Source: Bacteroidota bacterium (GTDB taxonomy: Bacteria; Bacteroidota; Bacteroidia; Bacteroidales; Prolixibacteraceae). Taken from it: 52,615 bases of DNA. This document shows, piece after piece, positions 11,751 through 48,589 of this stretch. The position numbers and the translations under genes were made by a program. Every line of letters begins with the position of its first letter. Position 1 is the stretch's first letter. The DNA lies in NCBI GenBank assembly GCA_023251435.1, contig JAHEYU010000040.1:1-52615 (forward strand), in the 5' to 3' direction. The notes beneath the pieces are model-generated. The model was given only the letters and a program-made list of their open reading frames with translations. It searched no databases and was not told where the DNA came from.

Positions 11751-12965
11751 TTACAATTTTGCGAAAACAACGGGTTTTCCTTCGTGTAACTTTTCGGCAC
11801 GCAGCAAAGCTTCAAGATAATAATAATCAGCATAAATCAACGGCACATCCACTTCTTTGTTTGAGGGTTTGGATCCGGTGCTGTGCAACAAAAGGAAACC
11901 ACGGGCATCGCCTTTTTTTGCCCGGTAATCTTGGGTCAACTTTTCAACAATTATATTTGCACTTTCAATGTATCTGTCTTTATTCTCTGAATAAGTGCTA
12001 AGTTCGTAAAGAGCAGAGCTAATTATAGCCGCGGCAGAAACGTCTCTTGGCTCATTGGGAATTTCGGGGGCATCAAAATCCCAGTAAGGAATTAAATCCT
12101 TCGGAAGTCGTGGGTGATTGAGAATAAATGAGGCAATATTTTCAGCCTGTTTCAGATAATTTGTGTCTTTTGTTTCGCGGTAGCAAAATGTGTAACCATA
12201 AAGTGCCCAGGCTTCCCCGCGCGACCAGGTTGACTCGTCACTATACCCCTGGTGTGTTTTCTTTTTCAGCACCTGACCAGTTATCGAATCGTAATCAACC
12301 ACATGATAAGTTCCAAAATCGGGCCTGAAATGGTTTTTCATAGTGGCATTGGCATGTGAAACGGCAATTTCGTAGAAAGAAGGATCTCCGGTCAGACGCG
12401 ATGCGGCAAACAACAACTCCAGGTTCATCATGTTGTCGATAATCACCGGGTGCGCATATTTGTCGCGACTGTGATCCCACGAAAGAATACATCCGGTTGC
12501 AGGATTAAATCTTTTTGACAGGGAATGTGCTGTTTCTATAATTACTTCCCGGTAATGTTTATCGTTGGTAAGACGGAATCCGTTGCCAAAACTGCAATAG
12601 ATTTTAAATCCCACATCATGTGTTGTTGTATTAAGTTTTTCAGGTTCAATATTCAGGGTAAATTCTTTTGCGCTGTTCAGCCATTCTGCTTTTCCTGTAT
12701 TTTCGTATAAAAACCACAAAATGCCTGGAAAAAAACCGCTGGTCCAGTCGCGCGAGGCAACCAGTTCCAGATTTCCATCATAGTCGAGGGTACGGGGTGA
12801 TACAAGCAAAAGATTTTTGTCATCTTCTTTCACTTCTTTTATTTCCTTCAAAAGATGCGAAACCTGATCCTCTGCATCATGCGACACCTTATCGATGAGA
12901 CAGTCGTTGGAACACGAAAAAGGCAATGCCATCAGGCTAATTAGTATTACTTTTTTGAAATTCAT
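11751..12965 (-). CDS. GH88 unsaturated glucuronyl hydrolase, lipoprotein
   Basis: Family GH88 enzyme, 404 residues, which hydrates and thereby removes 4,5-unsaturated uronic acid caps left by polysaccharide lyases. A lipobox ends at Cys18 (LPFSC), so it is likely a periplasmic lipoprotein. The two catalytic aspartates are in place: Asp117 in THDVGF and Asp177 in VIIDNMMNLELL, 60 residues apart as in Bacillus UGL (Asp88 and Asp149). RDWTSGFFPGILW and STWSRGEAWALYGY are the usual family stretches. It is the first gene of operon A, just downstream of a putative operator and a -7 box 29 bases before its ATG. It fits lyase-type depolymerisation by the heparinase II/III and jelly-roll proteins of the locus. 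Confidence 0.93.
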   Translation of the reverse strand: MNFKKVILISLMALPFSCSNDCLIDKVSHDAEDQVSHLLKEIKEVKEDDKNLLLVSPRTLDYDGNLELVASRDWTSGFFPGILWFLYENTGKAEWLNSAKEFTLNIEPEKLNTTTHDVGFKIYCSFGNGFRLTNDKHYREVIIETAHSLSKRFNPATGCILSWDHSRDKYAHPVIIDNMMNLELLFAASRLTGDPSFYEIAVSHANATMKNHFRPDFGTYHVVDYDSITGQVLKKKTHQGYSDESTWSRGEAWALYGYTFCYRETKDTNYLKQAENIASFILNHPRLPKDLIPYWDFDAPEIPNEPRDVSAAAIISSALYELSTYSENKDRYIESANIIVEKLTQDYRAKKGDARGFLLLHSTGSKPSNKEVDVPLIYADYYYLEALLRAEKLHEGKPVVFAKL

Positions 12966-12993: not shown

Positions 12994-13001
12994 CAAATAT
13001 C
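12994..13001 (-). promoter_or_regulatory. Putative -7 box for operon A
   Basis: Read on the minus strand this is GATATTTG, one mismatch from the Bacteroidetes TAnnTTTG box. It lies 29 bases before the GH88 start and exactly 66 bases from the shared ACTCATGTTGCA element, the same spacing as in the two receptor promoters. There is no convincing -33 TTG, which suits an activator-dependent promoter. Confidence 0.5.
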
Positions 13002-13066
13002 TCTATTATAATCTGCCTGACTTTTCAAATTTGGCCCAATAAATATTAATAATGTAGCTTATTGCC

Positions 13067-13087
13067 ACTCATGTTGCATACTGCAAC
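13067..13087. promoter_or_regulatory. Putative regulator operator, GH88/regulator intergenic region
   Basis: The 12-mer ACTCATGTTGCA at 13067-13078 is found again upstream of the two TonB-dependent receptor genes at 31210 and 43331. Here it runs into a perfect 6-3-6 palindrome, GTTGCATACTGCAAC (13073-13087). The site lies about 102 bases before GH88 and 93 bases before the divergently transcribed regulator gene, so it could control operon A and also autoregulate the regulator. Assignment to the hybrid regulator is inference from proximity. Confidence 0.6.
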
Positions 13088-13170
13088 GTAATTGACAGCT
13101 TAAAATGAGAAAAGAACGGCTATAAATAAATCCATTTTCTTATTTTTCAGTCGTTGAAAAACATACCGAC

Positions 13171-26427: not shown

Positions 26428-28044
26428 TTAATTCTTCATTATTTTCTTCACTATCCGTCCGTTAGCTCCTGAAACAGAAACAACGTAAAGACCTTTAGCT
26501 AGTTCTGCTCCCTGATCATTGTTTCCATTCCAGCGGATGTTGTAATCACCAACTTTCTGTTCGGCATTTACCAGTGTTTTTATTTTTTGACCCACTGAAT
26601 TATAGATGCTGACTTCCACCTTTTGAGGCTGTGACAGCGAATAATAAATAGTTGTAAAATCGCTAAACGGATTTGGATAATTCTGCCTGATTTCAAGTCC
26701 TTCAATGGCATCAAAAGGAATTAAAGCACTTTTATTCAAATTAGCGCCCTGCAACCATTGCGATTTCAAGGTAGGCCATGCATTCATGTCACCCAGCGGA
26801 TAACCGTTATCTCCACCTTTGTATGATTTTGAGGCTGTTGAATAGGTTACATCCCATTCGTAAGGATAAATTTCGGAGAAGTTATTGGGGAAAACAGATG
26901 CTTTTGGATGTGTTACCCAATAGGTTAAAAAGTTGTAAAGATTTAGCCATGATGAAGTATTTTTGAATACCAATTCTTCGCGAAAATAAGCTTGTGGCAA
27001 TCCTGCACCGACAAATTTTTTAATGGCGTTGTTGATCGGCCTCGGATCTGCAATCGAGTCTTTTTCTGGTGTCAGGTTGAAAAAGTCAACAAATTTCTGG
27101 TCATGATAAATGTTATTATTCCTCATTTCAACCACAGCCGATGTAAGTTTCGACGAAAGGCTATCGTGCGTAATCACACAAAATCCTTTATCGGGTTGCA
27201 ACTGTTCTGCTCTCCAACGAGTGGTTAAACGGTCTCCGTAAGTTAATGGATTCGAGAAAATGTTGTTGGTGATGACCGCGTGTTTTGTTTTGCCCAATTG
27301 CAAACAACCGTGATAACCCTGAACATTTACAATTGTATTGTGATCGAATTTAACGTAGTTGATTACAGGAGCCATGTTTCGCATCACCCGGTCGGTTAAA
27401 TTATAGATGGTATTGTTCTGAAAAACAATGGTATCTACAGTCGCGGTGGTTCTGATGTCGAGGGCACGCCCATTTCCTCCAACCGAAATATGGTGTCCCG
27501 AATTGCCCAGAATACAATCAGTCATATACAATTTAACACCATCCACCTGAATGGTGAATAAAGCACCACGATCGCTTAAAATGCGGCAACCGCGAACAAT
27601 TGCCCGGTAGTTTTTTCCATACATATTCAGAAACCGATTTCCAAGAGTTCCGTTTGAATGGCGTCCGTCGAATTCAATATTCTCCAATGTAAGGTTCAAG
27701 CGAGCCGTGATCATAGCAGCCGAACTTCCGGCGCTGTTTAAGGTGTGAAAAACAATGGGCAACGGCCCAGTCCCGGCTTCGGCCCTGATGTGTAAATCGT
27801 AGTCGAGGCTGTTAATCGTTGAAGTTGCCAGATAAACCTGTCCGCGTTTCAACTCATAAATAACGTTTTTATTGGTGGCACGATTAGGTGCATCGGCATT
27901 TATCGCATTAAATATCTGATCGTAAACCAGCGGCTGGCCAGGGGTAATCCCCGGAATTTGAACGACACGTTTTTGCGCGTTGGCTAACTGAATGACGGCA
28001 AGAAAAGCAGTCAGAAGAAATAGCTTTATATATGTTGTTTTCAT
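26428..28044 (-). CDS. T9SS-exported right-handed beta-helix protein (DUF5123/PL6-like)
   Basis: 538-residue protein with a signal peptide (to about NAQ, residue 23), a parallel beta-helix body and a C-terminal type A sorting domain for the type IX secretion system. The sorting domain runs from about residue 455: it begins with RQNYPNPFSDFTTIYYSL and ends with LAKGLYVVSVSGANGRIVKKIMKN. The helix shows repeated turns such as LTLENIEFDG, AIVRGCRIL, YMTDCILGNSG, TIVFQNNTIYN, VKFDHNTIVNV and AVITNNIFSNP, like DUF5123 and chondroitinase-B-type proteins. The only T9SS cargo in the window, it is probably on the cell surface. It lies 36 bases after the orphan TonB receptor, so it may capture or cut the polymer for it. 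Confidence 0.85.
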   Translation of the reverse strand: MKTTYIKLFLLTAFLAVIQLANAQKRVVQIPGITPGQPLVYDQIFNAINADAPNRATNKNVIYELKRGQVYLATSTINSLDYDLHIRAEAGTGPLPIVFHTLNSAGSSAAMITARLNLTLENIEFDGRHSNGTLGNRFLNMYGKNYRAIVRGCRILSDRGALFTIQVDGVKLYMTDCILGNSGHHISVGGNGRALDIRTTATVDTIVFQNNTIYNLTDRVMRNMAPVINYVKFDHNTIVNVQGYHGCLQLGKTKHAVITNNIFSNPLTYGDRLTTRWRAEQLQPDKGFCVITHDSLSSKLTSAVVEMRNNNIYHDQKFVDFFNLTPEKDSIADPRPINNAIKKFVGAGLPQAYFREELVFKNTSSWLNLYNFLTYWVTHPKASVFPNNFSEIYPYEWDVTYSTASKSYKGGDNGYPLGDMNAWPTLKSQWLQGANLNKSALIPFDAIEGLEIRQNYPNPFSDFTTIYYSLSQPQKVEVSIYNSVGQKIKTLVNAEQKVGDYNIRWNGNNDQGAELAKGLYVVSVSGANGRIVKKIMKN

Positions 28045-28080: not shown

Positions 28081-31017
28081 TTACTGCAAATTAATCTGAA
28101 TACCAAAATCAGCAGTTAGACCATACATGTTGCGGTAGGTCGGGAAATCAGAAGTATATCTATACCCCTTTTCAGTTGCGTTGGTAATATTGTTCAGATT
28201 TAATAACAGGCTGATATACTTGTTTATTCTCTGCTTAGCAGTTAAATCGAACCTTAAATGGGCATCGGTATAAGTGTAATAACCTTCCTGATCTGTATTC
28301 GGATTGATACTAGTCAGCCTGGTTCCCTGATAACTCATTGAAACACGGGTTGAGAATCCTTTGTGATCGTAGCCTAACCATGTGTTTGAGGTAAAATCAA
28401 CCTGTGATGGCATCCGGCTTTCGGTTTTCTGAAAATAAGATTTGGTGAAATCAACCGCCAATGTTGGACGAACATCTTTGTACATTACAATATCTTCAAT
28501 TTTCTTCCATACCAGATAATAAGTTCCTGACCATAGTCGGGTAAAGTTAAAACCTAAAGCAAAACGGTTAAACGGACTTGGCAGAAAGTTAAAGTGGGTA
28601 TTGTATTCAAATTCCAAACCGCGTACATAAGAATCATCGAGATTGATGTAATCCTCACTCAAATCGAACGATTGTGGAGGTAATCCGTTTTTAACTGCAT
28701 CTTCAGGAGTAAGTGTACCCCTGATATTGTAGAACATGTTGTCTATTTGTTTCATGTACCCTCCAAAAGAAAGCAAACCAAATTCACCCGTATAAATGGT
28801 TACTGAAGCATCGTAATTCCATGCTGTTGCATGTTTCAAATCGGGATTGGCTTTTTTAACATTGAAACTTCCGGCGTCGTATCTGAAACGAGGTACAATC
28901 CACATGTAGTTGGGTCGCGATAAGGTTCTTGCGGCCGACATTCGGATGTCCATCCATTTGGTTGGTTTAATTTTTAAATGAGCGCTAGGCAGCCACTCTC
29001 CGTATTTTTGGGTAGCAGTATCGGCTTCAATGTATCCGTTCGCGCCCCTTGCACCGTTAATTGATGAGTAGATTCCATGATACGTATTGTTCGAATATTC
29101 GTAACGAATACCCGGAATAAACGTAATCAGATCGGCATAATTCAGTTTTAACATGGCGTAACCGGCCGATACGGTTTCGTAGCTGTCATAGTTATTTTCG
29201 GCGTCGCCCAAATCGGGCAAATATTCCGAAAGGTGGTAAGTCTTCCACCATTTAATTTGACTTTCAGGAATGTATGGGAATAAATTGTAATCGCCTCCCA
29301 GGATTGGAACGTTCCTCTGCTCGGTAAAGTTCGACATTTCAATAATTCGCGAAGCTGTTACGGCTAAATCAGGTCTCGGATCGTTTTTATTGGCCAAATC
29401 GGTTAAAGTTGGTTTTAAAGAGTACTGCTGATCGGATAACCTGATGCCGTGACGCCGACGGTCTTCGGTCTGGTATTTCCCCCCAAACTTTAAATATCCG
29501 GCAATTTTATCACCCCATTTCACAGGCACTTCAATATCCAGTTTGGCCATGTAATTGGTTTGCTTCAGGGTATCAGGCCTCCAGGCCGACTCATTCAGGA
29601 ATGACAGTGTGTCTTTTATTTGATTTACGCTATTAAATGCTAAGTTATCAGCATAGTATTTCGGATCGGCAATATTTTGGCCCGCCGTACCTGGTAATAA
29701 TCCATTGGGATTTCCCAACATAAATTGCACCCACATATCGTATGGATTATAACCGTTGGTTTGGACGCGGGTTAAACTCCAGTCCACTTTCATTTTATTC
29801 AAATTCAAATTTCCGCCCAAAGAGCTGTTTAATGACGCTGTTCTGTTGTCGGTTGAAGTAGCATCGTGCAGCAATTGACCATTTCTGTTGATATTTTTAG
29901 ATAAGGTGTAGGTTTCGCGCGGCGAGGAGTTGAACATGTTTGTCAGGTAAATGCCACCACGGTCAAACTGGTAATCAATTAATGCCAGCCCACCTAGACG
30001 TTTGGTGATTTGCTTCCTTTCGGTAAACGTAATTTCCGAAATAAAAAATTCTTCAGCAATCTCGGCATTTGGGTTAAAATAGCCGATGTCTAAACCCTGA
30101 GCACTGCGATCGGTTTGTTCGTAGTTGGCCTGAGCCATTATACCCAGTTTGTTATTCAGAAAACGGGATGAATAATCCCAGGAACCTTTGTAATTATTCA
30201 GTTTCTGGTACAAATCGTTGTAACCGCCATATAGCCTGAATTGATTTTTGGTCCGTTCCGGCGCTTTGGCAATCACCAGATTGATCGACCCGGCAATAGC
30301 GTCAGCATCCATATCTGCTGTTGGCGATTTAAAGACCTCAATTCCCGAAAGCATTTCAGGAGAAATATTACTTAAATCGACAGAGCGATCTCCGCTTACA
30401 CCCATATCAGTGCCCGGTTGTTGCACTCCATTAATGCTTACGCTGGCGAATTTAGGATCCAATCCGCGAAGTACAACTTTCGATCCTTCGCCGTTGCTTC
30501 GAACCAGCGAAACCCCGGGAAGACGGCCAATGGCTTCAGCGGCATTTACATCGGGTAACTCCCGAATAGCATCTTTCGATACAACGTTCACCAGCGCGTT
30601 CGAATTCAGTTGCTGGTTAATGGCAGCGTTCTGTCCCATACGCTGGCTGCTCACCACCACCTCGCCAAGTGCAATAAATGGCTGGTCGAGACTAGCCTGT
30701 ACCTTTTTCTTTTCACCTTCTTTTAAGGTCACCTGAACGTCCTGCGTGGTGTAACCAGTGTAAGAAATCTGAATGGTATAATCTCCGGGTTGTAGGTTAC
30801 CAAACCTGAATCCCCCATCCATATCGGTAATCATTCCGATTACAGTACCCTTAATTGCTACCGAGGCGAACGGCAGCGTTTCATTGGTAGATTTGTCTTT
30901 TACAACTCCTGAAATTTCGCAAGGAGTTGCTTTTTGCGCAAGGACAATATTTTGTCCCCCGATAGCGGTCAGGAAAATCAGGACAGCTAAACTGAACATC
31001 CATCTTAAATACTTCAT
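28081..31017 (-). CDS. TonB-dependent receptor without a SusD partner
   Basis: 978-residue outer-membrane receptor. After a signal peptide (to about VLAQK) comes a carboxypeptidase-regulatory-like domain (CEISGVVKDKSTNETLPFASVAIKG, about residues 32-110). Then a plug (ELPDVNAAEAIGRLPGVSLVRSNGEGSKVVLRGL), and a 22-strand barrel with TLSRPNYMWIVPRFRYD and a final NMYGLTADFGIQINLQ, whose last aromatic-rich strand fits BamA targeting. It is of the FecA/CirA or TonB-Xanth-Caul type rather than SusC, and no susD follows. It heads operon C behind a promoter nearly identical to that of SusC, so it probably imports a different size class of the same glycan. Confidence 0.93.
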   Translation of the reverse strand: MKYLRWMFSLAVLIFLTAIGGQNIVLAQKATPCEISGVVKDKSTNETLPFASVAIKGTVIGMITDMDGGFRFGNLQPGDYTIQISYTGYTTQDVQVTLKEGEKKKVQASLDQPFIALGEVVVSSQRMGQNAAINQQLNSNALVNVVSKDAIRELPDVNAAEAIGRLPGVSLVRSNGEGSKVVLRGLDPKFASVSINGVQQPGTDMGVSGDRSVDLSNISPEMLSGIEVFKSPTADMDADAIAGSINLVIAKAPERTKNQFRLYGGYNDLYQKLNNYKGSWDYSSRFLNNKLGIMAQANYEQTDRSAQGLDIGYFNPNAEIAEEFFISEITFTERKQITKRLGGLALIDYQFDRGGIYLTNMFNSSPRETYTLSKNINRNGQLLHDATSTDNRTASLNSSLGGNLNLNKMKVDWSLTRVQTNGYNPYDMWVQFMLGNPNGLLPGTAGQNIADPKYYADNLAFNSVNQIKDTLSFLNESAWRPDTLKQTNYMAKLDIEVPVKWGDKIAGYLKFGGKYQTEDRRRHGIRLSDQQYSLKPTLTDLANKNDPRPDLAVTASRIIEMSNFTEQRNVPILGGDYNLFPYIPESQIKWWKTYHLSEYLPDLGDAENNYDSYETVSAGYAMLKLNYADLITFIPGIRYEYSNNTYHGIYSSINGARGANGYIEADTATQKYGEWLPSAHLKIKPTKWMDIRMSAARTLSRPNYMWIVPRFRYDAGSFNVKKANPDLKHATAWNYDASVTIYTGEFGLLSFGGYMKQIDNMFYNIRGTLTPEDAVKNGLPPQSFDLSEDYINLDDSYVRGLEFEYNTHFNFLPSPFNRFALGFNFTRLWSGTYYLVWKKIEDIVMYKDVRPTLAVDFTKSYFQKTESRMPSQVDFTSNTWLGYDHKGFSTRVSMSYQGTRLTSINPNTDQEGYYTYTDAHLRFDLTAKQRINKYISLLLNLNNITNATEKGYRYTSDFPTYRNMYGLTADFGIQINLQ

Positions 31018-31136: not shown

Positions 31137-31144
31137 CAAATTTA
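31137..31144 (-). promoter_or_regulatory. Putative -7 box of the orphan receptor
   Basis: On the minus strand this reads TAAATTTG, a full match to TAnnTTTG, 120 bases before the receptor ATG and 66 bases downstream of the ACTCATGTTGCA element. The region just before it (CTGAAAATAAATG, CGGGGC) is conserved with the SusC promoter. Confidence 0.6.
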
Positions 31145-31209
31145 CCGAATTGCCCCGCCATTTATTTTCAGGAATGTTGCTCATTATATGATTTTTGTGC
31201 CACTCTATG

Positions 31210-31237
31210 ACTCATGTTGCACAATGAGACAAATGAC
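31210..31237. promoter_or_regulatory. Putative operator upstream of the orphan receptor
   Basis: ACTCATGTTGCA at 31210-31221 is followed by TGAGACAAATGACC. The SusC site reads TTGACACAAACGACC after the same 12-mer. A partial direct repeat, ACTCTATG then ACTCATG, precedes it. Direct repeats are usual for AraC-type sites of HTCS proteins, but binding is not shown. Confidence 0.6.
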
Positions 31238-35113: not shown

Positions 35114-36646
35114 TTATCGTTTCATCAATTCCTGATAGTTCTCCCCCATCCTGGCTTTTAGTTGGATATCATAAAGCGATTCAGGAACAATACCAGGTTG
35201 GTTCAATCCTTCCCATTCGCCATCGGGACGGTCGTTGAAATGGCCGGGATATTTCCCGCCAATCAGGCCGATACAATAGTTTTTGCCACTTACCCAAGGC
35301 GATTGCACCGCAGTTTTTGGTGAACGGCAATTCCACACCACCTGGGTTACTCCAGCCCAACCATGTCCCGAGCCCATTTGACCTCGATCCTGAATATTGA
35401 TCTGGCCATCGGTGTCAACCTGGTCGTACAATGTTCCGCAGCTCCAACGGTGGTGCGGACCAATATCGGCATGGGTATTTCTGGCTTTACAATTGGTAAA
35501 TACGTTGGGACCAAGCACTCTTCCACCAGTCACAAAATCGTGACGGCCTTCGGTTGCATAGCAGTTTTTAAACAGGTTAAGCTGCCCGTTACAGTTGAAT
35601 GAGTAGCGCCTTCCGCCGGTAATTTGCGATTTGGCATCGAGGCTCTGTGAATCGAAAACCGAAATATTGCGCGACCCACCGTCGATGTTAACGCAGCCTT
35701 GCCCAAAATAACGCGAAACCACATTTCTCGCCCAACCCTGGTCCACTTTCGAAAAGTTGATAGCAGTCCAGCCGTGGTTTTCATCGGTTTCACCTTGGTA
35801 GGTCGATTCCATCGAAAGGTTTTCGATGCCGCAATTTTTGATCCTTCCTTTGAAGGTATATTTCAAGAGGTAACCGCCACCATATTTTTTGTCCATTTGC
35901 ATCATCACCGGATTATCGAGATAAACCTTGTTACCATAAATACCGGTAACTATTCGCTCGAAAAACAAATGATAGCCCGTAGCCTCCCATTGTTTTGTTC
36001 CGGGGCGTTCCACAATCTGGTCCATTTTCAGGTCGTGTATCCAGTTATCGGTTGCAGGGCGGTAGAGTAAAACCGAATCGCCAACGGTAAAGCGGGAAGC
36101 ATCCTCCAATTCAATGTATTTTCTTCCGACCGGCACGTAATTTTCAGCTATGGCAGTCTTTGTTTTTTCCATCTGTGCCATACGCCCGTTGCCGCTAAAC
36201 CTGAATAAATCGAGTTTTTCGGTAGCAGTTTCCTTAATCAAAGTGCCACCATCGCCAGCTCCTTCTCCACGAATTACTATTCCGGAATGATTTATATTAA
36301 TGCTGCCATTTACGCTGTAGGTTCCCTTTTTCAGCAGAACAGCGCCCCTATAACCATCTTTGCCGATCGGACGGGTTGCCAATTTATCGATGGCATTCTG
36401 GATATTCAGGCGGTTATCGCCCGAAACAGGCTCAACAACCACTATAACCGGTACTTCCGGAATATCGCGTTCGCCCGATGCATAGCCCACTTTACTGAAA
36501 TCGGGAATCGTATTTCCATTCTGATCAGGTGTGTAAATCAGTTTATTTCCATTCTGGAGAGAAACGTGTTTCGATTGCCACTCTTGCCGGGCAAATGCGT
36601 TCATTAGGAGAAAATGAAAGCCAATAAAAAGAAGTACTTTTTTCAT
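35114..36646 (-). CDS. Right-handed beta-helix protein, putative lyase/hydrolase (copy 1)
   Basis: 510-residue exported protein (signal to about NAFA, residue 19). The layout is pectate-lyase-3-like: DNRLNIQNAIDKLA and GYRGAVLLKKGTYSVNGSININHSGIVIRGEG (about 80-140), a small inserted domain, then coils of the helix. Near the C-terminus it has HHRWSCGTLYDQ and RGQMGSGHGWAGVTQVVWNC. The same pair of motifs occurs in the 43517-45103 protein, so conserved Arg-Trp and Gly-His-Gly-Trp residues probably form the active site. I know of no characterised member. It begins the segment after the SusCD terminator and may have its own promoter. Confidence 0.8.
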   Translation of the reverse strand: MKKVLLFIGFHFLLMNAFARQEWQSKHVSLQNGNKLIYTPDQNGNTIPDFSKVGYASGERDIPEVPVIVVVEPVSGDNRLNIQNAIDKLATRPIGKDGYRGAVLLKKGTYSVNGSININHSGIVIRGEGAGDGGTLIKETATEKLDLFRFSGNGRMAQMEKTKTAIAENYVPVGRKYIELEDASRFTVGDSVLLYRPATDNWIHDLKMDQIVERPGTKQWEATGYHLFFERIVTGIYGNKVYLDNPVMMQMDKKYGGGYLLKYTFKGRIKNCGIENLSMESTYQGETDENHGWTAINFSKVDQGWARNVVSRYFGQGCVNIDGGSRNISVFDSQSLDAKSQITGGRRYSFNCNGQLNLFKNCYATEGRHDFVTGGRVLGPNVFTNCKARNTHADIGPHHRWSCGTLYDQVDTDGQINIQDRGQMGSGHGWAGVTQVVWNCRSPKTAVQSPWVSGKNYCIGLIGGKYPGHFNDRPDGEWEGLNQPGIVPESLYDIQLKARMGENYQELMKR

Positions 36647-40088: not shown

Positions 40089-43000
40089 TTAGAAGTTTAA
40101 ATTGAGACCAAGACCCATTTCTTTTTTTCTAGGGTACGATCCAGCGTCTCTACCTGGGGTTAATACTCCTCCGCCAATTTCAGGGTCAAATCCGGTGTAA
40201 TTTGTCCAGGTGACCAGGTTATTAGCGTATATGTATGCTGTTAAACCTTTCACGTACAATTTCTGGGCAATAGCGTCATTGAGTTGATAGGACAAACGAA
40301 TATTGCGAAGCCGGATGAACGAACCATTCTCAAGAAACTCGCTGCTTAACTCGCGTGAAGTGTTTTGGACTGTCCCTCTCTGGGCATTTGGCACATCTGT
40401 TATGTGTCCTGGAAACCTCCATGCATTGTATATTTCGTAAGGCTGAGGTGTCACATTGGATGTTGCATAGGTAGTTAAACCATATTTTGCCTGGTTATAA
40501 ACCATATTTCCCCAATTGGCATAAAACGAGAACGAAAAGGTGAATCGTTTATAATTCATTGTATTATTCCAACCTCCAAACCAGTCGGGTAAACCTTGAC
40601 CTAAAACCTGCCGATCTTTGTCATCGATCTGATCGTTATCATCAGTGTTATCCCAGATCATATCGCCAGCTTGAAAAACCGCAGAACCAACTTTTAGCGG
40701 AGAAACCGGATTTGAAGTCGCATCCCATCCAAAGTCTTTGCCATCAGGATATGTATAACCCTTCAATATGGGTTTCCCGTTTTCCTGAATAATAACATTT
40801 CCCATGTTATCGCGTTCGAAAACCGGATTTAAACGGGTTTTATAATCACTGGTATAAGCATTCGATTCATTGTATTCGTAAACTCCCAGCGCTTTGTAAC
40901 CGTAAAATTGACCAACTGGCTGCCCTTTTGCGACCAGCCATGCGCTACTTTGCACGTAGTCATTTCCGGCCAATTCAAGTATTTCATTCTTGTTGATGGA
41001 AAAATTAACTGAAGTCTGCCATGAGAAATTCTTTGTCTGAACCGGATATCCGGATAAATTGATTTCAAGTCCACTATTCTCAATGGAACCCAAATTCACC
41101 TTGGCAGTCCTAAAACCTAATTCGGAAGGCATTAACGAATTGTACAACAAGCCTTCCGTGGTTTTGATATAATAATCGGCATTTACGGTCATTCTCCCGT
41201 CAAAAAGGCTCAAATCCAGTCCTAAATTTGTCTGTGATGTCTGTTCCCATTTTAGATCGGGGTTTCCAAAAGAATCTGAAGTATTAACTCCGGATACTCC
41301 ATTATAATAGTATGATCCAAAGGTATACAGGTTCATCGATTCGTAATTGCCAATGTTCTGGTTTCCTGTAATACCCCAGCTTGCCCTGAATTTGGCATCT
41401 TTGAGATAAGCTTTTGACCAATCCATAAACTTTTCGTCGGAGATACGCCATCCGATTGATGCTGATGGGAAAGTACCCCATCGATTGTTTGTAAAACGGG
41501 ATGAACCATCGCGACGGATATTCGAATTAAAAAGATATTTTCCTTTATAGCTGTAACTTAGGCGACCAAAAAATCCAACCATTGAATGGGACGTTGCCGA
41601 TGTGGTTGTTTCCAAAAGATCCAATGCCTGAATTGAATTAATGGTTGTTACATCTTCTGATACATAATTTGAGCCGGCAAAATTCATGCTTTCATCATAC
41701 CAATCTTCGGCAATCGTTCCAAATACAGCAGAAACAGCATGATCGTTAAAATCTCTGGCGTAAGATAAATAGGCCTCTCCGGCAATATTTGTGTTAAAAT
41801 CAGTTTCATCTCCACCATCTGCAATCTGAGGATTTGTTGTTGTCAAAAGCGCGGAGTTGAAGAAATTTCTACGGCCCAGCATAAAATTACCGTTTACGCT
41901 GGTCTGTAATTTCAGGTACTTATTAAACTTGTATTCCAGCATTTCATAAATACCTACATTAAATATCTTGTTGTCATTTTTCCGGTAATACGCTTCAGCG
42001 ATTGGATTTTTACGCCCTGCAATATCAAAGGCATAATTTCCGTCAGGAAAAAACAAAATGAAATGAGGGGGACGTTGCATTGCCTGTTGAATTACTCTAC
42101 CCTCATTTATTTTATTGGTGTTTTGATAAGAGAAAGTTACACGTGATGTGAATTTCAGTTTATCGGTTGCCTGATAATCCATGTTAATACGACCACTAAA
42201 CCGTTTATTGAAACTATTCAGCACAATACCAGTTTCATCTAAAATACCCAGACTACTGAAATACTTTAATTTATCTGATCCACCGCTTGCACTAACATCC
42301 ATTTGCTGACGCTTTGCAACCTGAGTAATCAAATCCTGATAATCGTTATTTGCATTTGTAGCCAATCCAAGTGAGTCATTGGCACTTGTATAGATATCCA
42401 GTTGTGTCCGGCGTTCAAACAATCTTCGTTCATAGGCATTGGCTTGAGGAACTTTCCGGGAAAGAAAATTCCAGCTCTGTAAATACCTTACATCAATTTT
42501 AGGCTTACCAGCTTCTCCTGTTTTTGTGGTAATAATAATTACCCCATTGGCTGAACGTGATCCATAAATTGCAGCAGATGCAGCATCTTTAAGAATCTCC
42601 ATCGATTTAATATCGTTTGGATTAATTGAACTGATATCACTCAATGGCACACCATCAACAACATAAAGCGGATTTACCCCACTTTCAAAGGTTGATGTTC
42701 CTCTTATTCGGATCGTGTTTTCATCACCGGGGGCACCTGAATTACTGACGACCAGAACACCAGGAGCCTCGCCCTGCAAAACATCGTAAACATTTACAGC
42801 CTGACGTTTTTCAATCATTTTTTCGTCCACCGAAGTAATGGCGCCGGTTACATCGCGTTTACGCTGTGTTCCGTAACCAACCACAACTACTTCTTCAACA
42901 CCAATGACATCGGGCTGCAAGGTCAAATTAACGGTGGTTCTGTTGTTGATCTGGACTTCTTCTTGTTTCATCCCAATGTAACTGAATACAAGAACTTTGG

Positions 43001-43217
43001 CTTTTTCGTCAACACTAATAGTGTACTTGCCATTCACATCGGTAATAACGCCCTGTGTGGTACCTTTAACAGTTACAGCAACCCCGGGCAAGGACTCACC
43101 GACATTGTCGGATACGACCCCGGATATGATTTTCCCCTGTGCCATTACATTCAGAACAATGAAAAAGCACAATGCGGCAACCATGGATAATTTTCTAATT
43201 ACAGATTTTTTTTTCAT
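40089..43217 (-). CDS. SusC/RagA family TonB-dependent oligosaccharide transporter
   Basis: 1042-residue outer-membrane importer, the size of a normal SusC. Signal peptide to about MAQG, then a carboxypeptidase-D-like domain (KIISGVVSDNVGESLPGVAVTVKG, about 29-105). A TonB box-like stretch (VEEVVVVGYGTQ) leads into the plug with VTGAITSVDEKMIEK, GVLVVSNSGAPGDENTIRIRGTSTF and the family signature LKDAASAAIYGSRSANGVIIITTK. A 22-strand barrel ends in LGLNLNF. It is the first gene of operon D and is controlled by a promoter almost identical to that of the orphan receptor. Works with the SusD gene just downstream. Confidence 0.97.
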   Translation of the reverse strand: MKKKSVIRKLSMVAALCFFIVLNVMAQGKIISGVVSDNVGESLPGVAVTVKGTTQGVITDVNGKYTISVDEKAKVLVFSYIGMKQEEVQINNRTTVNLTLQPDVIGVEEVVVVGYGTQRKRDVTGAITSVDEKMIEKRQAVNVYDVLQGEAPGVLVVSNSGAPGDENTIRIRGTSTFESGVNPLYVVDGVPLSDISSINPNDIKSMEILKDAASAAIYGSRSANGVIIITTKTGEAGKPKIDVRYLQSWNFLSRKVPQANAYERRLFERRTQLDIYTSANDSLGLATNANNDYQDLITQVAKRQQMDVSASGGSDKLKYFSSLGILDETGIVLNSFNKRFSGRINMDYQATDKLKFTSRVTFSYQNTNKINEGRVIQQAMQRPPHFILFFPDGNYAFDIAGRKNPIAEAYYRKNDNKIFNVGIYEMLEYKFNKYLKLQTSVNGNFMLGRRNFFNSALLTTTNPQIADGGDETDFNTNIAGEAYLSYARDFNDHAVSAVFGTIAEDWYDESMNFAGSNYVSEDVTTINSIQALDLLETTTSATSHSMVGFFGRLSYSYKGKYLFNSNIRRDGSSRFTNNRWGTFPSASIGWRISDEKFMDWSKAYLKDAKFRASWGITGNQNIGNYESMNLYTFGSYYYNGVSGVNTSDSFGNPDLKWEQTSQTNLGLDLSLFDGRMTVNADYYIKTTEGLLYNSLMPSELGFRTAKVNLGSIENSGLEINLSGYPVQTKNFSWQTSVNFSINKNEILELAGNDYVQSSAWLVAKGQPVGQFYGYKALGVYEYNESNAYTSDYKTRLNPVFERDNMGNVIIQENGKPILKGYTYPDGKDFGWDATSNPVSPLKVGSAVFQAGDMIWDNTDDNDQIDDKDRQVLGQGLPDWFGGWNNTMNYKRFTFSFSFYANWGNMVYNQAKYGLTTYATSNVTPQPYEIYNAWRFPGHITDVPNAQRGTVQNTSRELSSEFLENGSFIRLRNIRLSYQLNDAIAQKLYVKGLTAYIYANNLVTWTNYTGFDPEIGGGVLTPGRDAGSYPRKKEMGLGLNLNF

Positions 43218-43257: not shown

Positions 43258-43265
43258 CAAATTTA
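43258..43265 (-). promoter_or_regulatory. Putative -7 box of susC
   Basis: Minus-strand TAAATTTG, a full TAnnTTTG match 41 bases before the susC ATG and 66 bases from the operator 12-mer. The nearest upstream TTG is about 27 bases away, too far for a standard -33 element, which suggests activator dependence. Confidence 0.6.
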
Positions 43266-43330
43266 CCGGATAGCCCCGACATTTATTTTCAGCAATGTTT
43301 CTCTTTTTATGATTTTTGTGCCACACTATA

Positions 43331-43358
43331 ACTCATGTTGCATGTTGACACAAACGAC
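43331..43358. promoter_or_regulatory. Putative operator between susC and operon E
   Basis: ACTCATGTTGCA at 43331-43342, followed by TTGACACAAACGACC. It is the third copy of the shared element. The 299-base region is divergent, so the site could also act on the plus-strand genes from 43517. Confidence 0.6.
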
Positions 43359-43516: not shown

Positions 43517-45103
43517 ATGAAAAATACGAAATCTATTCCGTTCCTTGTCCTGGTAGTTTTACTGTCCGGTACATGCTTATTTTCATCGGCACAAAAAAAC
43601 GATTCAAACCCAGGAGCACAAAGCGAATGGGTTTACAAGGGGACAGACGGAAAATTGAAGTACAAAACAACTCACACAGGAGATCGGGTTATGGATTTTT
43701 CGCACGCCGGGTACATGGGTGGCGGTGTGGCACTTCCGGTAGTTGAGGTAAAAAAAAGCGTTAAGCCTTCTGGTGGTGCCGATGACACAGAGCTTATTCA
43801 GTCGGCTGTTAATGAAGTTGCAGCGTTGCCTTTAAAGAATGGTTTTCGGGGAGCAGTACTTCTGGAACCGGGTGTCTTCACATGTTCCGGGGCTATTAGC
43901 ATTTCGGCTGATGGTGTGGTATTACGTGGAAGCCGCATAAACAAAACAACACTAAAAATAACCGGGGATAGGCATACGGCCATAGTTATTGGGAAAAGAA
44001 GGAACGCTCAAACAGCAACTGAAGTCAGGAATGATTTCAAGGCTGCTGAAACCTACCTATCCGACAAGTATGTTCCATCCGGAGCCGTCTCATTTAGGAT
44101 AGCCGATACAAAAGGACTTGCAGTGGGCGATTTGATTGAAATCAGAAAACCAGTAACAAAAGCATGGGTTCATTATATGGAGATGGACAATCTGGTTCGC
44201 GACGGCAAACCACAAACCTGGATCCGCGAAGGTTCAACCATTAATACACGTCGCACTATCGCCAAAATTGAAGGCAATAAAATTACGCTCGAAGTGCCTG
44301 TTTCTGACTCTTTCGATTCGGAATATGCGGAACCAACCGGGACGGTAGTAGCCAAAATACAACCCAACAATTTGGTTTCGCAATGCGGAGTCGAAAATCT
44401 TCACATTCAGGCTCCACCAATGCAAACCAGTCATGAACAGGCACTCTATTCAGCTTTGCGGATAAGTGGACAGGACTGCTGGGCTAAAAACTTACTGATT
44501 GAAGAAACGATGAACAGCGTTGGGACCTCTGGCAGTCGGATTACGTTGGAAGAAGTAGCAATCACCCGAACAGTTCCCAATGTGGGAGCCTCAAAACCTG
44601 CAGAGTTCGCGCCTAATGCCGGACAAATTTTAATGAACCGATGTTCGAGCAAAGGAGACAACATCTGGCATGTAGGTACCGGTGCCGGAATAGCCGGGCC
44701 AATTGTGATGCTCAACTGTACATTTGTCGGGAATGGACACATCGAAGGACATCAGCGGTGGACAACCGGAATTCTGGCTGATAATTGCGTAATTCCCGAC
44801 GGAGGAATTGATTTTAAAAATCGCGGATCAATGGGTTCCGGACACGGTTGGGGCTCTGCATGGTCGGTAGCATGGAATTGCACCGCAAAAAGCTATGTGA
44901 TACAGCAACCGCCGGGTACAACCAACTGGCGGATTGGATGTATTGGAACCAACCTTCCCACTGCGCGGCCTTTCGATAAATCACCAACTTTACCTTTGGG
45001 TATTACCGATTCGCCTGATGCGAAGGTTAAGCCTGCAAGCCTTTACCTGACGCAACTTGAAGAACGTTTGGGAAAACAGGCGCTTAAAAATATCGGATAC
45101 TAG
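43517..45103 (+). CDS. Right-handed beta-helix protein, putative lyase/hydrolase (copy 2)
   Basis: 528-residue exported protein (signal to about LFSSAQ, residue 26), paralogous to the 35114-36646 product. Shared features, in order: a DFSHAGYMGGG opening (DFSKVGYASGE in copy 1), NGFRGAVLLEPGVFTCSGAISISADGVVLRGS, a small domain around KYVPSGAVSFRIADTKGLAVGDLIEI, helix coils, then HQRWTTGILADN and NRGSMGSGHGWGSAWSVAWNC. The conserved motifs make an enzyme likely, but I know of no tested member. First gene of operon E; its stop codon TAG is directly followed by the sulfatase ATG. Confidence 0.8.
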   Translation: MKNTKSIPFLVLVVLLSGTCLFSSAQKNDSNPGAQSEWVYKGTDGKLKYKTTHTGDRVMDFSHAGYMGGGVALPVVEVKKSVKPSGGADDTELIQSAVNEVAALPLKNGFRGAVLLEPGVFTCSGAISISADGVVLRGSRINKTTLKITGDRHTAIVIGKRRNAQTATEVRNDFKAAETYLSDKYVPSGAVSFRIADTKGLAVGDLIEIRKPVTKAWVHYMEMDNLVRDGKPQTWIREGSTINTRRTIAKIEGNKITLEVPVSDSFDSEYAEPTGTVVAKIQPNNLVSQCGVENLHIQAPPMQTSHEQALYSALRISGQDCWAKNLLIEETMNSVGTSGSRITLEEVAITRTVPNVGASKPAEFAPNAGQILMNRCSSKGDNIWHVGTGAGIAGPIVMLNCTFVGNGHIEGHQRWTTGILADNCVIPDGGIDFKNRGSMGSGHGWGSAWSVAWNCTAKSYVIQQPPGTTNWRIGCIGTNLPTARPFDKSPTLPLGITDSPDAKVKPASLYLTQLEERLGKQALKNIGY

Positions 45104-46567
45104 ATGAAAGCAATTAAAAATAAAACCATCTTGGGAATTGCCCTCTCATTGGCAGGAGGCAGTACTCTTCTATCGCAAACTAAGCCCAATGTGCTTTTTG
45201 TAATGACCGACCAGCAAACTTATACCATGATGAGCTGTATGGGAAATAAGTGGCTAAGTACACCAAATATGGACAAGATTGCCCAAAAAGGTTACCGGTT
45301 TGAAAAAACCTATGTTTCAAATCCGGTTTGCATGCCTTCACGGTTTTCGCTGCTTACGGGCCATTATGCTTCCGAAGTGGGCGTCAAGGAGAATACAAGC
45401 AATTACAATAAGGCCAAAGTGAGTGAAATTGTTTCGAAAGATGCTTTGGGAGTTATTTTTAGGAATGCCGGTTATGAAACTTTATATTCGGGCAAAACAC
45501 ATCTTTACGGAACAAAGGATGTTTCGGAATATGGATTTAAAATAAACAATACCGACCCTTATGACGGGCCAGCAATTTATGCGGAGAAAGTACTTGCCGA
45601 AATGGGAAAAACCAGACAGGATAAACCATTTCTATTGTTTCTTTCGTTCCTGAATCCTCACGATATTTGTTACAAGGCGGGAATGGACAAACGTTATCCT
45701 GAAAATCTTTCGGAAGCCAATGTTCGTGAAACAGCCCGCATTCTCGCTATGCAAAAAACTTTGAAACCGGAAGAATATCACAGACAAATTCCACCGCGAT
45801 CAACAAATCCTACCCCGATAAATGGAGAACTGCCTGACATGGTCTCTATGGATGTTTTCCCAAGGACATGGAACAATGATCAGTTGGATTTATATAACTG
45901 GATGTATCACCGATTAACTGAAAGTGTTGACATTCAGATTGGTAGAGTACTAACTGCTTTGGAAAAATCAGGTCTGGAAGAAAATACCATCATCGTTTTC
46001 ACTTCCGATCACGGTGATATGAATGGATCGCATGGTCTGATCCTAAAGAATGTGATGTTCGAAGAATGCCAGCGTGTGCCATTTATTTTTGCAGGCAAAG
46101 GGATTAAACCCAATTATACTGATCATTCAACTCTGGTGTGCAATGGAATTGACTTCATCCCGACTATTTGCGATTTGGTTGGAATTAAAACGCCGGAAAG
46201 ACTTCCAGGCATTTCACTCAAGCCGTTTCTGACCGGTCAGGAACAAAAACCGGATAGAAAATACATTTTCACTGAAGATTATAACGGCTATCAGATTAAC
46301 GATGGAAGATATAAATATACCATTTATGAATTGCCCGGATACCCTGAAATGCTGACTGATTTGCAAACCAACCCCGGCGAAACCATAAACTATTCCAGTG
46401 ATTCGGCATACAGGGAACTTAAAACTATGCTAAAAAAAGAGCTGATGGCCAATTTGTCAAAAAGAGGACTGACCCCACTTCCACAGGACAGAACTATTGA
46501 AAATATCAGGAAATTGGAAAATGCAAAAAACGCAAAAAATAAGTCAAAAGTTAGGGCAGAAGAATAA
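45104..46567 (+). CDS. S1-family sulfatase (second)
   Basis: 487-residue formylglycine sulfatase, exported (signal to about STLLSQ). The active-site Cys76 is in NPVCMPSRFSLLTG, matching C-x-P-S-R. Asp36 in FVMTDQQTY and the later FTSDHGDMNGSHGL and GIDFIPTICDLVG motifs are intact. It belongs to a different subfamily from the 20704 sulfatase, closer to TDQQ-type enzymes. Together they suggest at least two sulfate positions in the glycan. Start immediately follows the beta-helix stop, so the two are probably coupled. The lysine-rich, repetitive C-terminal tail (NAKNAKNKSK) looks disordered. Confidence 0.94.
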   Translation: MKAIKNKTILGIALSLAGGSTLLSQTKPNVLFVMTDQQTYTMMSCMGNKWLSTPNMDKIAQKGYRFEKTYVSNPVCMPSRFSLLTGHYASEVGVKENTSNYNKAKVSEIVSKDALGVIFRNAGYETLYSGKTHLYGTKDVSEYGFKINNTDPYDGPAIYAEKVLAEMGKTRQDKPFLLFLSFLNPHDICYKAGMDKRYPENLSEANVRETARILAMQKTLKPEEYHRQIPPRSTNPTPINGELPDMVSMDVFPRTWNNDQLDLYNWMYHRLTESVDIQIGRVLTALEKSGLEENTIIVFTSDHGDMNGSHGLILKNVMFEECQRVPFIFAGKGIKPNYTDHSTLVCNGIDFIPTICDLVGIKTPERLPGISLKPFLTGQEQKPDRKYIFTEDYNGYQINDGRYKYTIYELPGYPEMLTDLQTNPGETINYSSDSAYRELKTMLKKELMANLSKRGLTPLPQDRTIENIRKLENAKNAKNKSKVRAEE

Positions 46568-46583
46568 TAAAAAATCAATTCAT

Positions 46584-48581
46584 ATGTCTGGAATGAAACG
46601 AATTAACCTAATCCTGTTTGTAATTATTTTCTTCTCTTTAACCGTTCAGGCCCAAAGAGATATTATCCGGTGGGATCTTGCCGGTGACGGCGGAATTTCA
46701 TGGGTCGTTAAGACCAATGATGTACATACCGACCACATTGAAATGAGTGGCAAACAGATTTCGGCTATTGTAAGCTATGGCCTGAATGCTGAAAAAGAAT
46801 TGGTGCTGAAGAAGAAATTAATCTTTCCGATGCTTCGGAAGTTACCAAACAAAACAGGCTCGCATCTCTCACTCGAATTTGATCAGCAAAATCAACCCGT
46901 GATATTGGTGAATGGAACCGAAATGCAGGAAACTCCGGTCCGTTTTCACCACAAGGGACTTCTGACCATTGAAAGCCTTTCCAATACACCGGTTACGCTT
47001 ACCAAACTGCTTTTCCCTTCAGTTGATAAGGCTGCTTACCTCGAAATCTACCGGTTGAAGAATACTTCGGCGTCATCGGTGTCAGTTGAAATTCAGCATG
47101 ATGTACCCGATGTCCATACCAAAGCGGAAGAAGGAATTTACGGTGAATACCTGATACGTGTTGAAGCTACCAAAAAGGGAAATTTTACAATCAGCCCCGG
47201 CGGTGATTTCGAATTTGCCATGATTTATTCAGCGCGCAAGGTTCATGAAGAAAAATACGCCTTTTCAGCAGCCTATGAACTGGCCAGACGCATCGAAATG
47301 ATATCCGGAATTTTAGACAAACTGGTACTTGAAACACCAAACGATACCATCAACCGTGAATTTGCCTTTGCAAAAATCAGGGGAACCGAAAGTATTTACG
47401 ATACCAAAGGCGGGCTGATGCACGGACCGGGCGGCGGCGCCTATTATGCTGCTATCTGGGCCAATGATCAGGCAGAGTATATCAATCCGTTTTTCCCTTT
47501 CCTTGGAAATATAAACGGCAACGAATCGGTGCTGAATTCTTTCCGCCATTTTGCCCGGTTTATGAATCCGGAATACAAACCCATACCGAGTTCCATTATT
47601 TCTGAAGGGGTCGGAACCTGGCACGGTGCCAAAGACCGGGGAGATATGGCCATGATTGCCTACGGCGCATCTCGCTTCGCACTTGCTTATGGTGATAAAA
47701 ATGCGGCTTTTGAACTTTGGCCACTGATTGAGTGGTGCCTCCAATACCTGGAAAGGAAGAAATCGCCCGAAGGGGTTATTTTCTCCGATTCAGATGAATT
47801 GGAAAACCGTTTCGAAAACGGCGATTACAACCTGGCAACCAATTCGCTGGCGTACGGAGGTTTGGTCAGCGCTTCGTATCTGGCTGCTGAATTGGGAAAA
47901 ACAGAAGCTGCAAACCGCTACCGGAACCGGGCAGCTGAACTCCGGAAAGCCATTGAAAAACACTTTGGCGCCACTGTTCAGGGATTCGATACTTACCAGT
48001 ATTACCAGGGAAACACAAAACTTCGCGCCTGGATTTGTTATCCGCTGAACATGGGAATTTTCGACCGGAAAGATGAAACCATGAAAGCTCTTTTTTCTGA
48101 TTTCCTGTGGACAGGCAACGGTATTCTCTCTGAATCGGGCACAAAAACATTCTGGGACAGGTCAACTTTGCATGCGTTCAAAGGACTTTTTGCTGCAGGA
48201 GCTACCAACCAGACAATGAACTATTTCGAATATTATTCGGCCAAAAGGCTGCTGGGCGATCATGTTCCATACCCGGTCGAAGCCTGGCCCGAAGGAAATC
48301 AGCGTCATCTTTCGGCCGAATCAGGGTTGTATTGCCGGGTGGTTACCGAAGGCCTGTTTGGCATCGAGCCTACCGGGTTCCGGAGTTTTACAATGAAACC
48401 CAGGCTTCCTGAAGGATGGAATTTTATGAGATTAAAAAATATCCGGGCTTTTCAATCCGACTTTGACATTGAAGTTCATCGTAAAGGAAAAAAGATCAAG
48501 GTCTTAATCCTGCAGGATGGTCAGAAAACCATTGAAACAAACTGGGATCAGATATCGGAATTGAATGTTAAACTTAATTAA
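46584..48581 (+). CDS. (alpha/alpha)6-barrel glycosidase-like exported protein
   Basis: 665 residues from the ATG at 46584 (MSGMKRINLILFVIIFFSLTVQAQ, a signal peptide). The open frame begins 29 codons earlier inside the sulfatase gene, and I reject that start. The N-terminal 230 residues are beta-rich; from about 260 the pattern is a six-hairpin toroid as in GH78, GH63 or GH116: IRGTESIYDTKGG, YYAAIWANDQAEYINPFFPFLG, EGVGTWHGAKDRGDMAMIAYGA, DYNLATNSLAYGGLVSASYLA and YPVEAWPEGNQRHLSAES. Acidic residues in WANDQAEY and EAWPEGNQ are catalytic candidates. I cannot place it in a named family. Probably an exo-acting glycosidase of operon E. Confidence 0.75.
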   Translation: MSGMKRINLILFVIIFFSLTVQAQRDIIRWDLAGDGGISWVVKTNDVHTDHIEMSGKQISAIVSYGLNAEKELVLKKKLIFPMLRKLPNKTGSHLSLEFDQQNQPVILVNGTEMQETPVRFHHKGLLTIESLSNTPVTLTKLLFPSVDKAAYLEIYRLKNTSASSVSVEIQHDVPDVHTKAEEGIYGEYLIRVEATKKGNFTISPGGDFEFAMIYSARKVHEEKYAFSAAYELARRIEMISGILDKLVLETPNDTINREFAFAKIRGTESIYDTKGGLMHGPGGGAYYAAIWANDQAEYINPFFPFLGNINGNESVLNSFRHFARFMNPEYKPIPSSIISEGVGTWHGAKDRGDMAMIAYGASRFALAYGDKNAAFELWPLIEWCLQYLERKKSPEGVIFSDSDELENRFENGDYNLATNSLAYGGLVSASYLAAELGKTEAANRYRNRAAELRKAIEKHFGATVQGFDTYQYYQGNTKLRAWICYPLNMGIFDRKDETMKALFSDFLWTGNGILSESGTKTFWDRSTLHAFKGLFAAGATNQTMNYFEYYSAKRLLGDHVPYPVEAWPEGNQRHLSAESGLYCRVVTEGLFGIEPTGFRSFTMKPRLPEGWNFMRLKNIRAFQSDFDIEVHRKGKKIKVLILQDGQKTIETNWDQISELNVKLN

Positions 48582-48589
48582 ACCAACCA

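Follow-up and report, generated by a model that had tools for sequence, protein, structure and literature searches.

Among the polysaccharide regulators of Bacteroidota, hybrid two-component regulators (HTCSs) form a major class. In class II activation by members of the AraC family, such as AraC and MelR, tandem monomer sites lie ~21 bp apart, and the proximal site coincides with the upstream promoter element. Promoters of the sigma-ABfr type carry a -7 box with the consensus letters TAnnTTTG and a -33 TTTG element at a characteristic spacing. A -33 element is described for sigma-ABfr promoters of Bacteroides in the available part of one report (PMC7366714). For Bacteroides thetaiotaomicron, the available part of the work of Ravcheev et al. 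(2013; PMC3878776) presents HTCS motifs predicted as direct repeats with an average spacing of 21 bp, i.e., the 21-bp direct repeat is already known; such motifs were predicted for only 16 of the 36 HTCSs of this organism. An S/CHIP motif in the receiver domain has been tied, in the accessible text of another paper, to DNA binding that is held off until phosphorylation (PMC11253607).

The window analyzed here, i.e., the whole stretch of 52,615 nt from a member of the Prolixibacteraceae, encodes an HTCS that combines in one chain a periplasmic propeller sensor, HisKA, HATPase, and receiver domains, and an AraC-type DNA-binding domain. Its HisKA region carries the sequence ISHEFRTP, and its receiver domain carries a SHIP motif at residue 1172. 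A preliminary description of the window had considered this protein the sole regulator of the locus and, consistently, it is the only one with a match to a DNA-binding domain (E up to 1e-5) among the 32 ORFs that were searched in Pfam; the mechanically derived list comprises 67 ORFs of ≥100 aa.

The same description had proposed that one motif, the 12-mer ACTCATGTTGCA, serves three operons at a fixed promoter distance under control of the adjacent HTCS. Over the whole window, its + strand copies at 13067, 31210, and 43331 were confirmed, and each of them lies in the gap that precedes the first gene of a minus-strand operon, i.e., a GH88 gene, a gene for a TonB-dependent receptor without adjacent SusD, and a susC gene, as claimed. 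In 100 shuffles of the window, the 12-mer occurred 0.02 times on average and never three times. A genome-wide scan, set as a test beforehand, found exactly these three copies in 148 contigs (5,729,331 bp), all inside the window, so the motif is not common elsewhere; the 12-mer written backwards has no copy in the whole 5.73-Mb genome.

The distance of 66 bp from each copy to a -7-like box is exact at all three sites, but positions 13001, 31144, and 43265, which had been taken for the last bases of the boxes, are their 5' bases in the direction of transcription. The boxes at 31144 and 43265 (TAAATTTG in both cases) match TAnnTTTG perfectly, whereas the one at 13001 (GATATTTG) matches in five of the six fixed positions only. 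Since 1,193 of 40,000 shuffles contained a box as good as the latter at +77/+78, the box at 13001 carries little weight by itself; perfect boxes appeared at +77/+78 in 64-92 per 40,000 shuffles of the window gaps. Furthermore, the regions upstream of the TonB-receptor and susC genes are identical in 91 of 108 positions (84%) across array and promoter and dissimilar outside. The equal spacing at 31210 and 43331 thus represents one event, and two of the three spacings are real but not independent. The spacing at 13067 agrees independently with these two, and the other half-sites described below back this.

Sequence comparison shows that the 12-mer represents half-site A in an array of four (Table 1). 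The half-sites have the form TGnnACA followed by an AT-rich tail. Along the direction of transcription, C, which is inverted, and A stand head to head with a 3-bp gap, B follows 19 bp after A, and D another 21 bp after B; in the window arrays, D starts 37 bp before the -7 box. The D-to-box distance is probably the mechanistically meaningful one, of which the 66 bp emphasized earlier would be a consequence.

The array was recovered with a matrix built from 21 A, B, and D units of the HTCS-GH88 gaps of seven relatives, which contained no window DNA. At all three sites, the top three of 110 same-strand offsets (-30 to +79) were 0, +19, and +40, the fourth-best scores being -0.96 (13067), -0.58 (31210), and -2.19 (43331). 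The best opposite-strand offset was that of C at all three sites, with scores of 9.7, 5.8, and 5.1 and runners-up of 2.0, 5.3, and 3.2, respectively. Half-site A is the top-scoring half-site in the window, and single-site p values against all window positions ranged from 0.00003 to 0.0035. The summed scores of B, D, and C amounted to 20.6 (13067), 19.5 (31210), and 19.1 (43331), and none of 40,000 Markov shuffles of each gap reached the corresponding sum. These results bear on the idea that a promoter piece was copied between 31210 and 43331, as their resemblance within sharp limits indeed suggests, and that the third match arose by chance, without a common regulator. The score at 13067 and the recurrence of the same geometry in relatives argue against it and render it exceedingly improbable.

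Two other sequence elements were considered and rejected. TGANACAAANGACC, which is present without mismatch only at 31225 and 43346 within the window, is no separate second motif, as half-site C lies within it. In an alignment made by eye that assumed a 32-bp deletion, CAAATTTG at 13033-13026 appeared as the counterpart of the -7 box; it was discarded because the matrix places it inside half-site D, while the box at 13001 is in register.

Table 1. Genes, half-sites, and boxes of the window, and array matches with scores above 15 outside the window and the training set
Feature	Sequence	Position	Strand	Remarks
GH88		11751-12965	-	Operon head downstream of array 1
HTCS, 1352 aa		13171-17229	+	Propeller repeats, Y_Y_Y, HisKA, HATPase, receiver, AraC-type DNA-binding domain (Pfam)
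TonB-dependent receptor without adjacent SusD		28081-31017	-	Operon head downstream of array 2
SusC		40089-43217	-	Operon head downstream of array 3
Array 1, half-site C	TGCAACGTAATT	13082-13093	+	Score 9.69, p = 0.0002; best opposite-strand offset; inverted to A
Array 1, half-site A	TGCAACATGAGT	13067-13078	-	First-noted 12-mer; exact match, matrix
Array 1, half-site B, +19	AGCTACATTATT	13048-13059	-	Score 5.46, p = 0.001
Array 1, half-site D, +40	TGGGCCAAATTT	13027-13038	-	Score 5.46, p = 0.001
Array 1, -7-like box, +77	GATATTTG	12994-13001	-	5/6 fixed positions; proposed promoter of GH88 operon
Array 2, half-site C	TGAGACAAATGA	31225-31236	+	Score 5.84, p = 0.0009
Array 2, half-site A		31210-31221	-	Exact 12-mer, matrix
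Array 2, half-site B, +19	TGGCACAAAAATCAT	31188-31202	-	Score 10.6, p = 0.0001
Array 2, half-site D, +40	AGCAACATTCCT	31170-31181	-	Weak; score 3.0, p = 0.0035; third-best of 110 same-strand offsets, fourth -0.6
Array 2, -7 box, +77	TAAATTTG	31137-31144	-	Proposed promoter of TonB-receptor operon
Array 3, half-site C	TGACACAAACGA	43346-43357	+	Score 5.06, p = 0.0012
Array 3, half-site A		43331-43342	-	Exact 12-mer, matrix
Array 3, half-site B, +19	TGGCACAAAAATCAT	43309-43323	-	Score 10.6, p = 0.0001
Array 3, half-site D, +40	AGAAACATTGCT	43291-43302	-	Weak; score 3.4, p = 0.0029; third-best of 110 same-strand offsets, fourth -2.2
Array 3, -7 box, +77	TAAATTTG	43258-43265	-	Proposed promoter of SusC-SusD operon
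Array match in G067		51277		Score 53.9; HTCS gene itself next, near contig end
Array match in G162		39076		Score 39.2
Array match in G017		88511		Score 27.0; heads operon of ~820-aa protein, GH88, SusC; nearest HTCS gene end ~12 kb
Array match in G076		3706350		Score 26.0; heads operon of 810-aa protein, GH88, SusC-sized ORF; nearest HTCS gene end ~15 kb
Array match in G163		15041		Score 25.9
Array match in G015		70067		Score 22.4; heads GH95
Array match in G015		27572		Score 19.7; heads operon of ~820-aa protein, GH88, SusC; nearest HTCS gene end ~38 kb
Array match in G112:C483		8362		Score 15.4

HTCS homologs share 58% (G015), 51% (G017), and, in other genera of the family, 34-50% of their residues with the window protein (E up to 1e-230); with the window's own genome included, 33 of 140 family genomes contain a match. 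The seven relatives used for training (G029, G065, G114, G116, G113, G066, and G110) have a divergent GH88 gene and, read toward this gene, their gaps contain the inverted C, A, B at 19 bp, and D 21 bp further, with TGnnACA repeated. Several genera are represented among the relatives that have this geometry between their divergently oriented GH88 and HTCS genes, and the 21-bp B-D direct repeat is common to all three window arrays and the seven training relatives. In all seven, D is also followed at 37 or 38 bp by a perfect TAnnTTTG, a count that is no test, since these relatives were chosen by eye for the pattern and the script was anchored on the box.

An array scan of 20 stretches (848,667 bp) gave scores of 41.4, 40.2, and 39.0 for the window arrays and of 56 to 67 for the seven training arrays, whilst the peak values were 10.2 in 100 shuffles (five per stretch) and 12.9 in reversed sequences. 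Eight matches scored above 15 outside the window and the training set (Table 1), and six of these are followed by GH88 and/or SusC. Since those at G015 27572, G017 88511, and G076 3706350 head operons 12-38 kb away from the nearest end of the HTCS gene, the sites mark operons of the locus and not just the HTCS gene. The best array in G117:C199 scored 9.8, i.e., below the maximum of the reversed control. No array above 15 was detected in G002:C14, G034:C1, G078:C12, and G112:C473 (maxima 1.2 to 3.5) despite their HTCS homologs; the G002 contig starts within its HTCS gene, so that the operator lies off the contig.

Whole-array alignment with MAFFT displaced the -7 boxes, since the C/A gap and the D-to-box distance each vary by one base, and profile models were therefore built on the gapless A-D core. 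A sequence-only profile, R1, was made from 14 such cores, three of them from the window, and a second one, R2, from eight relatives without window DNA. In the own genome, R1 found only the three arrays (E 1.9e-11, 5.5e-10, and 6.0e-7), which are part of the model; the next-best match was a 25-base piece with E 0.10. R2 recovered 43331 (E 3.1e-6) and 31210 (E 2.6e-4), with the next match at 0.65, and missed 13067 in this genome-wide search. Over the 140 family genomes, R1 gave matches with E up to 0.05 in 44 cases and with E <1e-3 in 21, of which 14 are training rows of the model. Of these 21 strongest matches, 17 share a contig with a homolog of the window HTCS; for the other four (G067:C6, G163:C47, G027, and G085), no full HTCS homolog was found on the DNA compared.

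Eleven untrained R1 matches, some of them picked for adjoining an HTCS, were inspected for the -7 box, which is not part of the model. Seven have a perfect TAnnTTTG at +77/+78, and six of these seven sit between a GH88 gene and an HTCS homolog with 35-39% identity, two of the six (G096 and G097) being near-identical sequences. The remaining four (L232, L238, L239, and L240) have no perfect box at +77/+78 and an imperfect one or none at +74 to +82. The variant GAnnTTTG recurs at or near the -7 place, i.e., as GAACTTTG in L232, 79 bp after A, and in the GH88 promoter of the window, and may be a weak form of the -7 box that HTCS promoters tolerate. By eye, L239 (~7439) and L240 (~6107) contain three direct TGnnACA repeats with 20-21 bp spacing and without a good TAnnTTTG, possibly the sites of another AraC-type regulator with a different promoter. 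In the window as a whole, TAnnTTTG is rarer than expected (33 occurrences versus 48 on average in shuffles, 98 of 100 of which reach 33 or more), perhaps reflecting avoidance inside genes.

A -33 TTTG element is unclear by eye in the three upstream regions of the window, and half-site D overlaps its expected place; with its tail, D would span about -37 to -21 relative to the start of the -7 box. Whether HTCS loci in general share such a geometry was addressed in a lag test of 169 TAnnTTTG boxes in 336 gene-upstream regions of 80 HTCS contigs among the matches listed, nearly all from Bacteroidota; their HTCSs are at most 37% identical to that of the window among the matches listed, and the set served for a group test only. 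Among lags of 14-30, the best was 21 with the best anchor at -37 (z 5.1), which corresponds to a direct repeat of 21 bp with its proximal unit beginning 37 bp upstream of the box, and lags outside 20-22 did not exceed z 2.0 among the matches listed. Upstream of SusC-sized genes, 6 of 20 boxes passed the threshold for the lag-21 repeat versus 0-2 at other lags, and upstream of other genes 10 of 149 versus 0-6; in the 20-box subset, the anchor -33 (z 4.4) peaked just above -37 (z 4.3), all again among the matches listed. In a second, smaller set of 37 HTCS loci with 72 upstream regions and 38 boxes, there was no peak at lag 21 (z 0.7), the best lag being 48 (z 2.8). The two-site rule of 37-38 bp may, as far as these sequences indicate, be general, and the four-site array seems restricted to the clade of this HTCS.

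These data are relevant to the question whether only the B-D repeat activates, with C and A as accessory sites that control, e.g., the divergent HTCS gene. The published HTCS motif is, in the part of the source available, a two-site direct repeat (PMC3878776), and the B-D repeat alone gives the group signal in the HTCS loci of the lag test, among the matches listed. However, the C/A geometry is maintained at promoters that do not adjoin the HTCS gene, i.e., at 31210 and 43331 and in the three operon-heading arrays of G015, G017, and G076 mentioned above, although half-site A of the G017 array is weak (0.3). Also, A is the best half-site in the window. We therefore regard a purely accessory role of C and A as unlikely.

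Further indications come from the recognition helices of the HTCSs. G112:C483 encodes a SusC and a SusD with 79% identity to the window proteins, whereas the identity of its HTCS is only 45%. The half-sites in this relative are TGACGGATAA (C), TGACCGATAA (A), TGACCTATTT (B), and, weak, AGCATGATAA (D), at the same offsets as in the window and with a box, TAAATTTG, at +77; G117 resembles G112 in its half-sites and has the box TATTTTTG at +77. In both relatives, the first recognition helix is STSSLYRK and half-sites A, C, and B are of the TGACCGATAA type. The helix SRS(S/T)LHRK, found in the window and in G015, G017, G076, G065, G114, G116, G113, G066, and G067, pairs with TGnnACA half-sites; the helices of G029 and G110 lie off their contigs. 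With the HTCS of G112 as query, G002 was the only further member retrieved for the STSSLYRK group. The helix of G163, SRTSLYRK, is mixed and accompanied by half-sites resembling TGAATCA; thus, the exchange of His for Tyr does not by itself switch the site, and the helix code is more complex than an H/Y switch. The covariation suggests that the half-site follows the recognition helix, and is only suggestive as there are two such operators only.

It deserves mention that the array might be bound by a different regulator encoded elsewhere, such as an AraC protein or a further HTCS, as the genome encodes at least nine further HTCS-like proteins (among 10 candidates scored) and AraC domains share recognition helices. 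Yet, orthologs of the window HTCS lie next to the array or on the same contig in 17 of the 21 strongest profile matches, training rows included, and the half-site is changed in both relatives with a changed recognition helix, which makes such a regulator very unlikely. Since C, A, and B change together in G112 and G117, one protein should bind all of them, and C and A are read as HTCS half-sites. This also disfavors the notion that the C/A pair is the site of a Crp-like global sugar regulator (BT4338/Cur). Its palindrome TATGTTnTAnAACATA, as given in the available part of PMC3878776, has ATGTT/AACAT-like arms as in C/A, but the gap between the arms is 4 bp versus 9-10 bp in C/A; a Crp-like occupant of C/A is hardly credible.

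Altogether, the preferred reading, which we consider highly probable on sequence grounds, is that the arrays are the operator of the HTCS at 13171 and that this protein activates the GH88, TonB-receptor, and SusC operons. The core of the preliminary proposal, i.e., one motif at a fixed promoter spacing in front of three operons next to the HTCS, is supported by the footprints in relatives and the array searches, with the amendment that the 12-mer is one of four half-sites. In the mechanism that we infer, the HTCS would sense a glycan fragment in the periplasm, become phosphorylated on its receiver domain, and then bind the arrays, probably as two dimers, one on C and A and one on B and D. The monomer on D would overlie the -33 region and contact RNA polymerase, and the three operons would be switched on together. 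An activator in contact with RNA polymerase would be consistent with the D-to-box distance, which is fixed to within one base. Conversely, given that D directly adjoins the promoter, the polymerase might be blocked by the HTCS or a different protein at this half-site, and one repressing HTCS, BT2391, is cited in the accessible text of PMC11253607. According to the same text, BT2391 deviates from the consensus, whereas the window HTCS retains SHIP, and a role of the sites in repression appears highly improbable.

The TonB-receptor operon would run from 31017 down to 17250 and the SusC-SusD operon from 43217 down to 31292. A 72%-identical counterpart of the former is present in G029, where the array scan found no array above 8 in front of it. 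The simplest reading of this and of the similarity between the two window promoters is that a copied promoter module recruited the TonB-receptor operon. A plus-strand operon divergent from susC (43517-50458) encodes a 528-aa protein, a sulfatase, a protein with a weak rhamnosidase-like match, and a GH97; the array scan revealed no array above 8 reading toward it, and there is no perfect TAnnTTTG on the plus strand between 43343 and 43517. The protein encoded at 26428-28044, after the TonB receptor where SusD is usual, contains FlgD-like Ig and Por secretion C-terminal domains and is conserved in G029 (67%). The proteins encoded at 35114-36646 and 43517-45103 are paralogs with 30% identity, conserved in G015 (71 and 48%, respectively); they have no Pfam match at E up to 1e-5 and are candidate enzymes of the locus.

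A broader proposal combines a Bacteroidota-wide HTCS spacing rule, i.e., a proximal half-site 37-38 bp upstream of TAnnTTTG and a direct-repeat partner 21 bp further up, with a clade-specific four-site version and a helix, SRxxLHRK or STSSLYRK, that predicts TGnnACA or TGACCGA, respectively; the arguments for and against this combination are about evenly balanced. If it is true, HTCS regulons would be readable from sequence alone. With a rigid operator-promoter layout, searches become possible independently of expression data, the operons within a large locus can be assigned to sensors by prediction, and specific bases are singled out for mutation. The genes under control of a sensor may thus be readable from DNA and, judging from the covariation of helix and half-site, prediction of operators from the protein sequence may be feasible.

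Neither a four-site or inverted HTCS operator nor a fixed -7 distance was found in the available portions of PMC3878776, PMC11253607, PMC5061871, PMC12125979, PMC6874557, PMC7366714, and PMC10994844. In the available part of PMC3878776, there is no mention of an inverted HTCS site or of a promoter distance: "inverted repeat" does not occur, and the three places with "palindrom" concern other regulators. Thus, as far as the literature was searched, C and A as an inverted pair, the step of 19 bp between A and B, the constant distance of 37-38 bp to the -7 box, and the link between helix and half-site are new, although the spacing may show in the alignment supplement of PMC3878776. The locus resembles class II activation by AraC and MelR in its tandem sites ~21 bp apart, the proximal of which occupies the place of the upstream promoter element, and differs from it in its sigma-ABfr-type -7/-33 promoter, its membrane-bound hybrid kinase, and its extra inverted pair. 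It shares a -7 element, here matching TAnnTTTG, with the sigma-ABfr promoter of Bacteroides (PMC7366714), but instead of a -33 element evident by eye it has half-site D. The closest known systems are the HTCS operators of B. thetaiotaomicron which, in the part of the source available (PMC3878776), likewise belong to AraC-type HTCSs, consist of a direct repeat of ~21 bp, corresponding to B-D here, and lie upstream of the SusC/SusD and enzyme operons of their own locus. The window operator, with four half-sites where the published kind has two, is a variant of these, to which it adds the inverted C/A pair, an A-B step of 19 bp, and a constant D-to-box distance of 37-38 bp.
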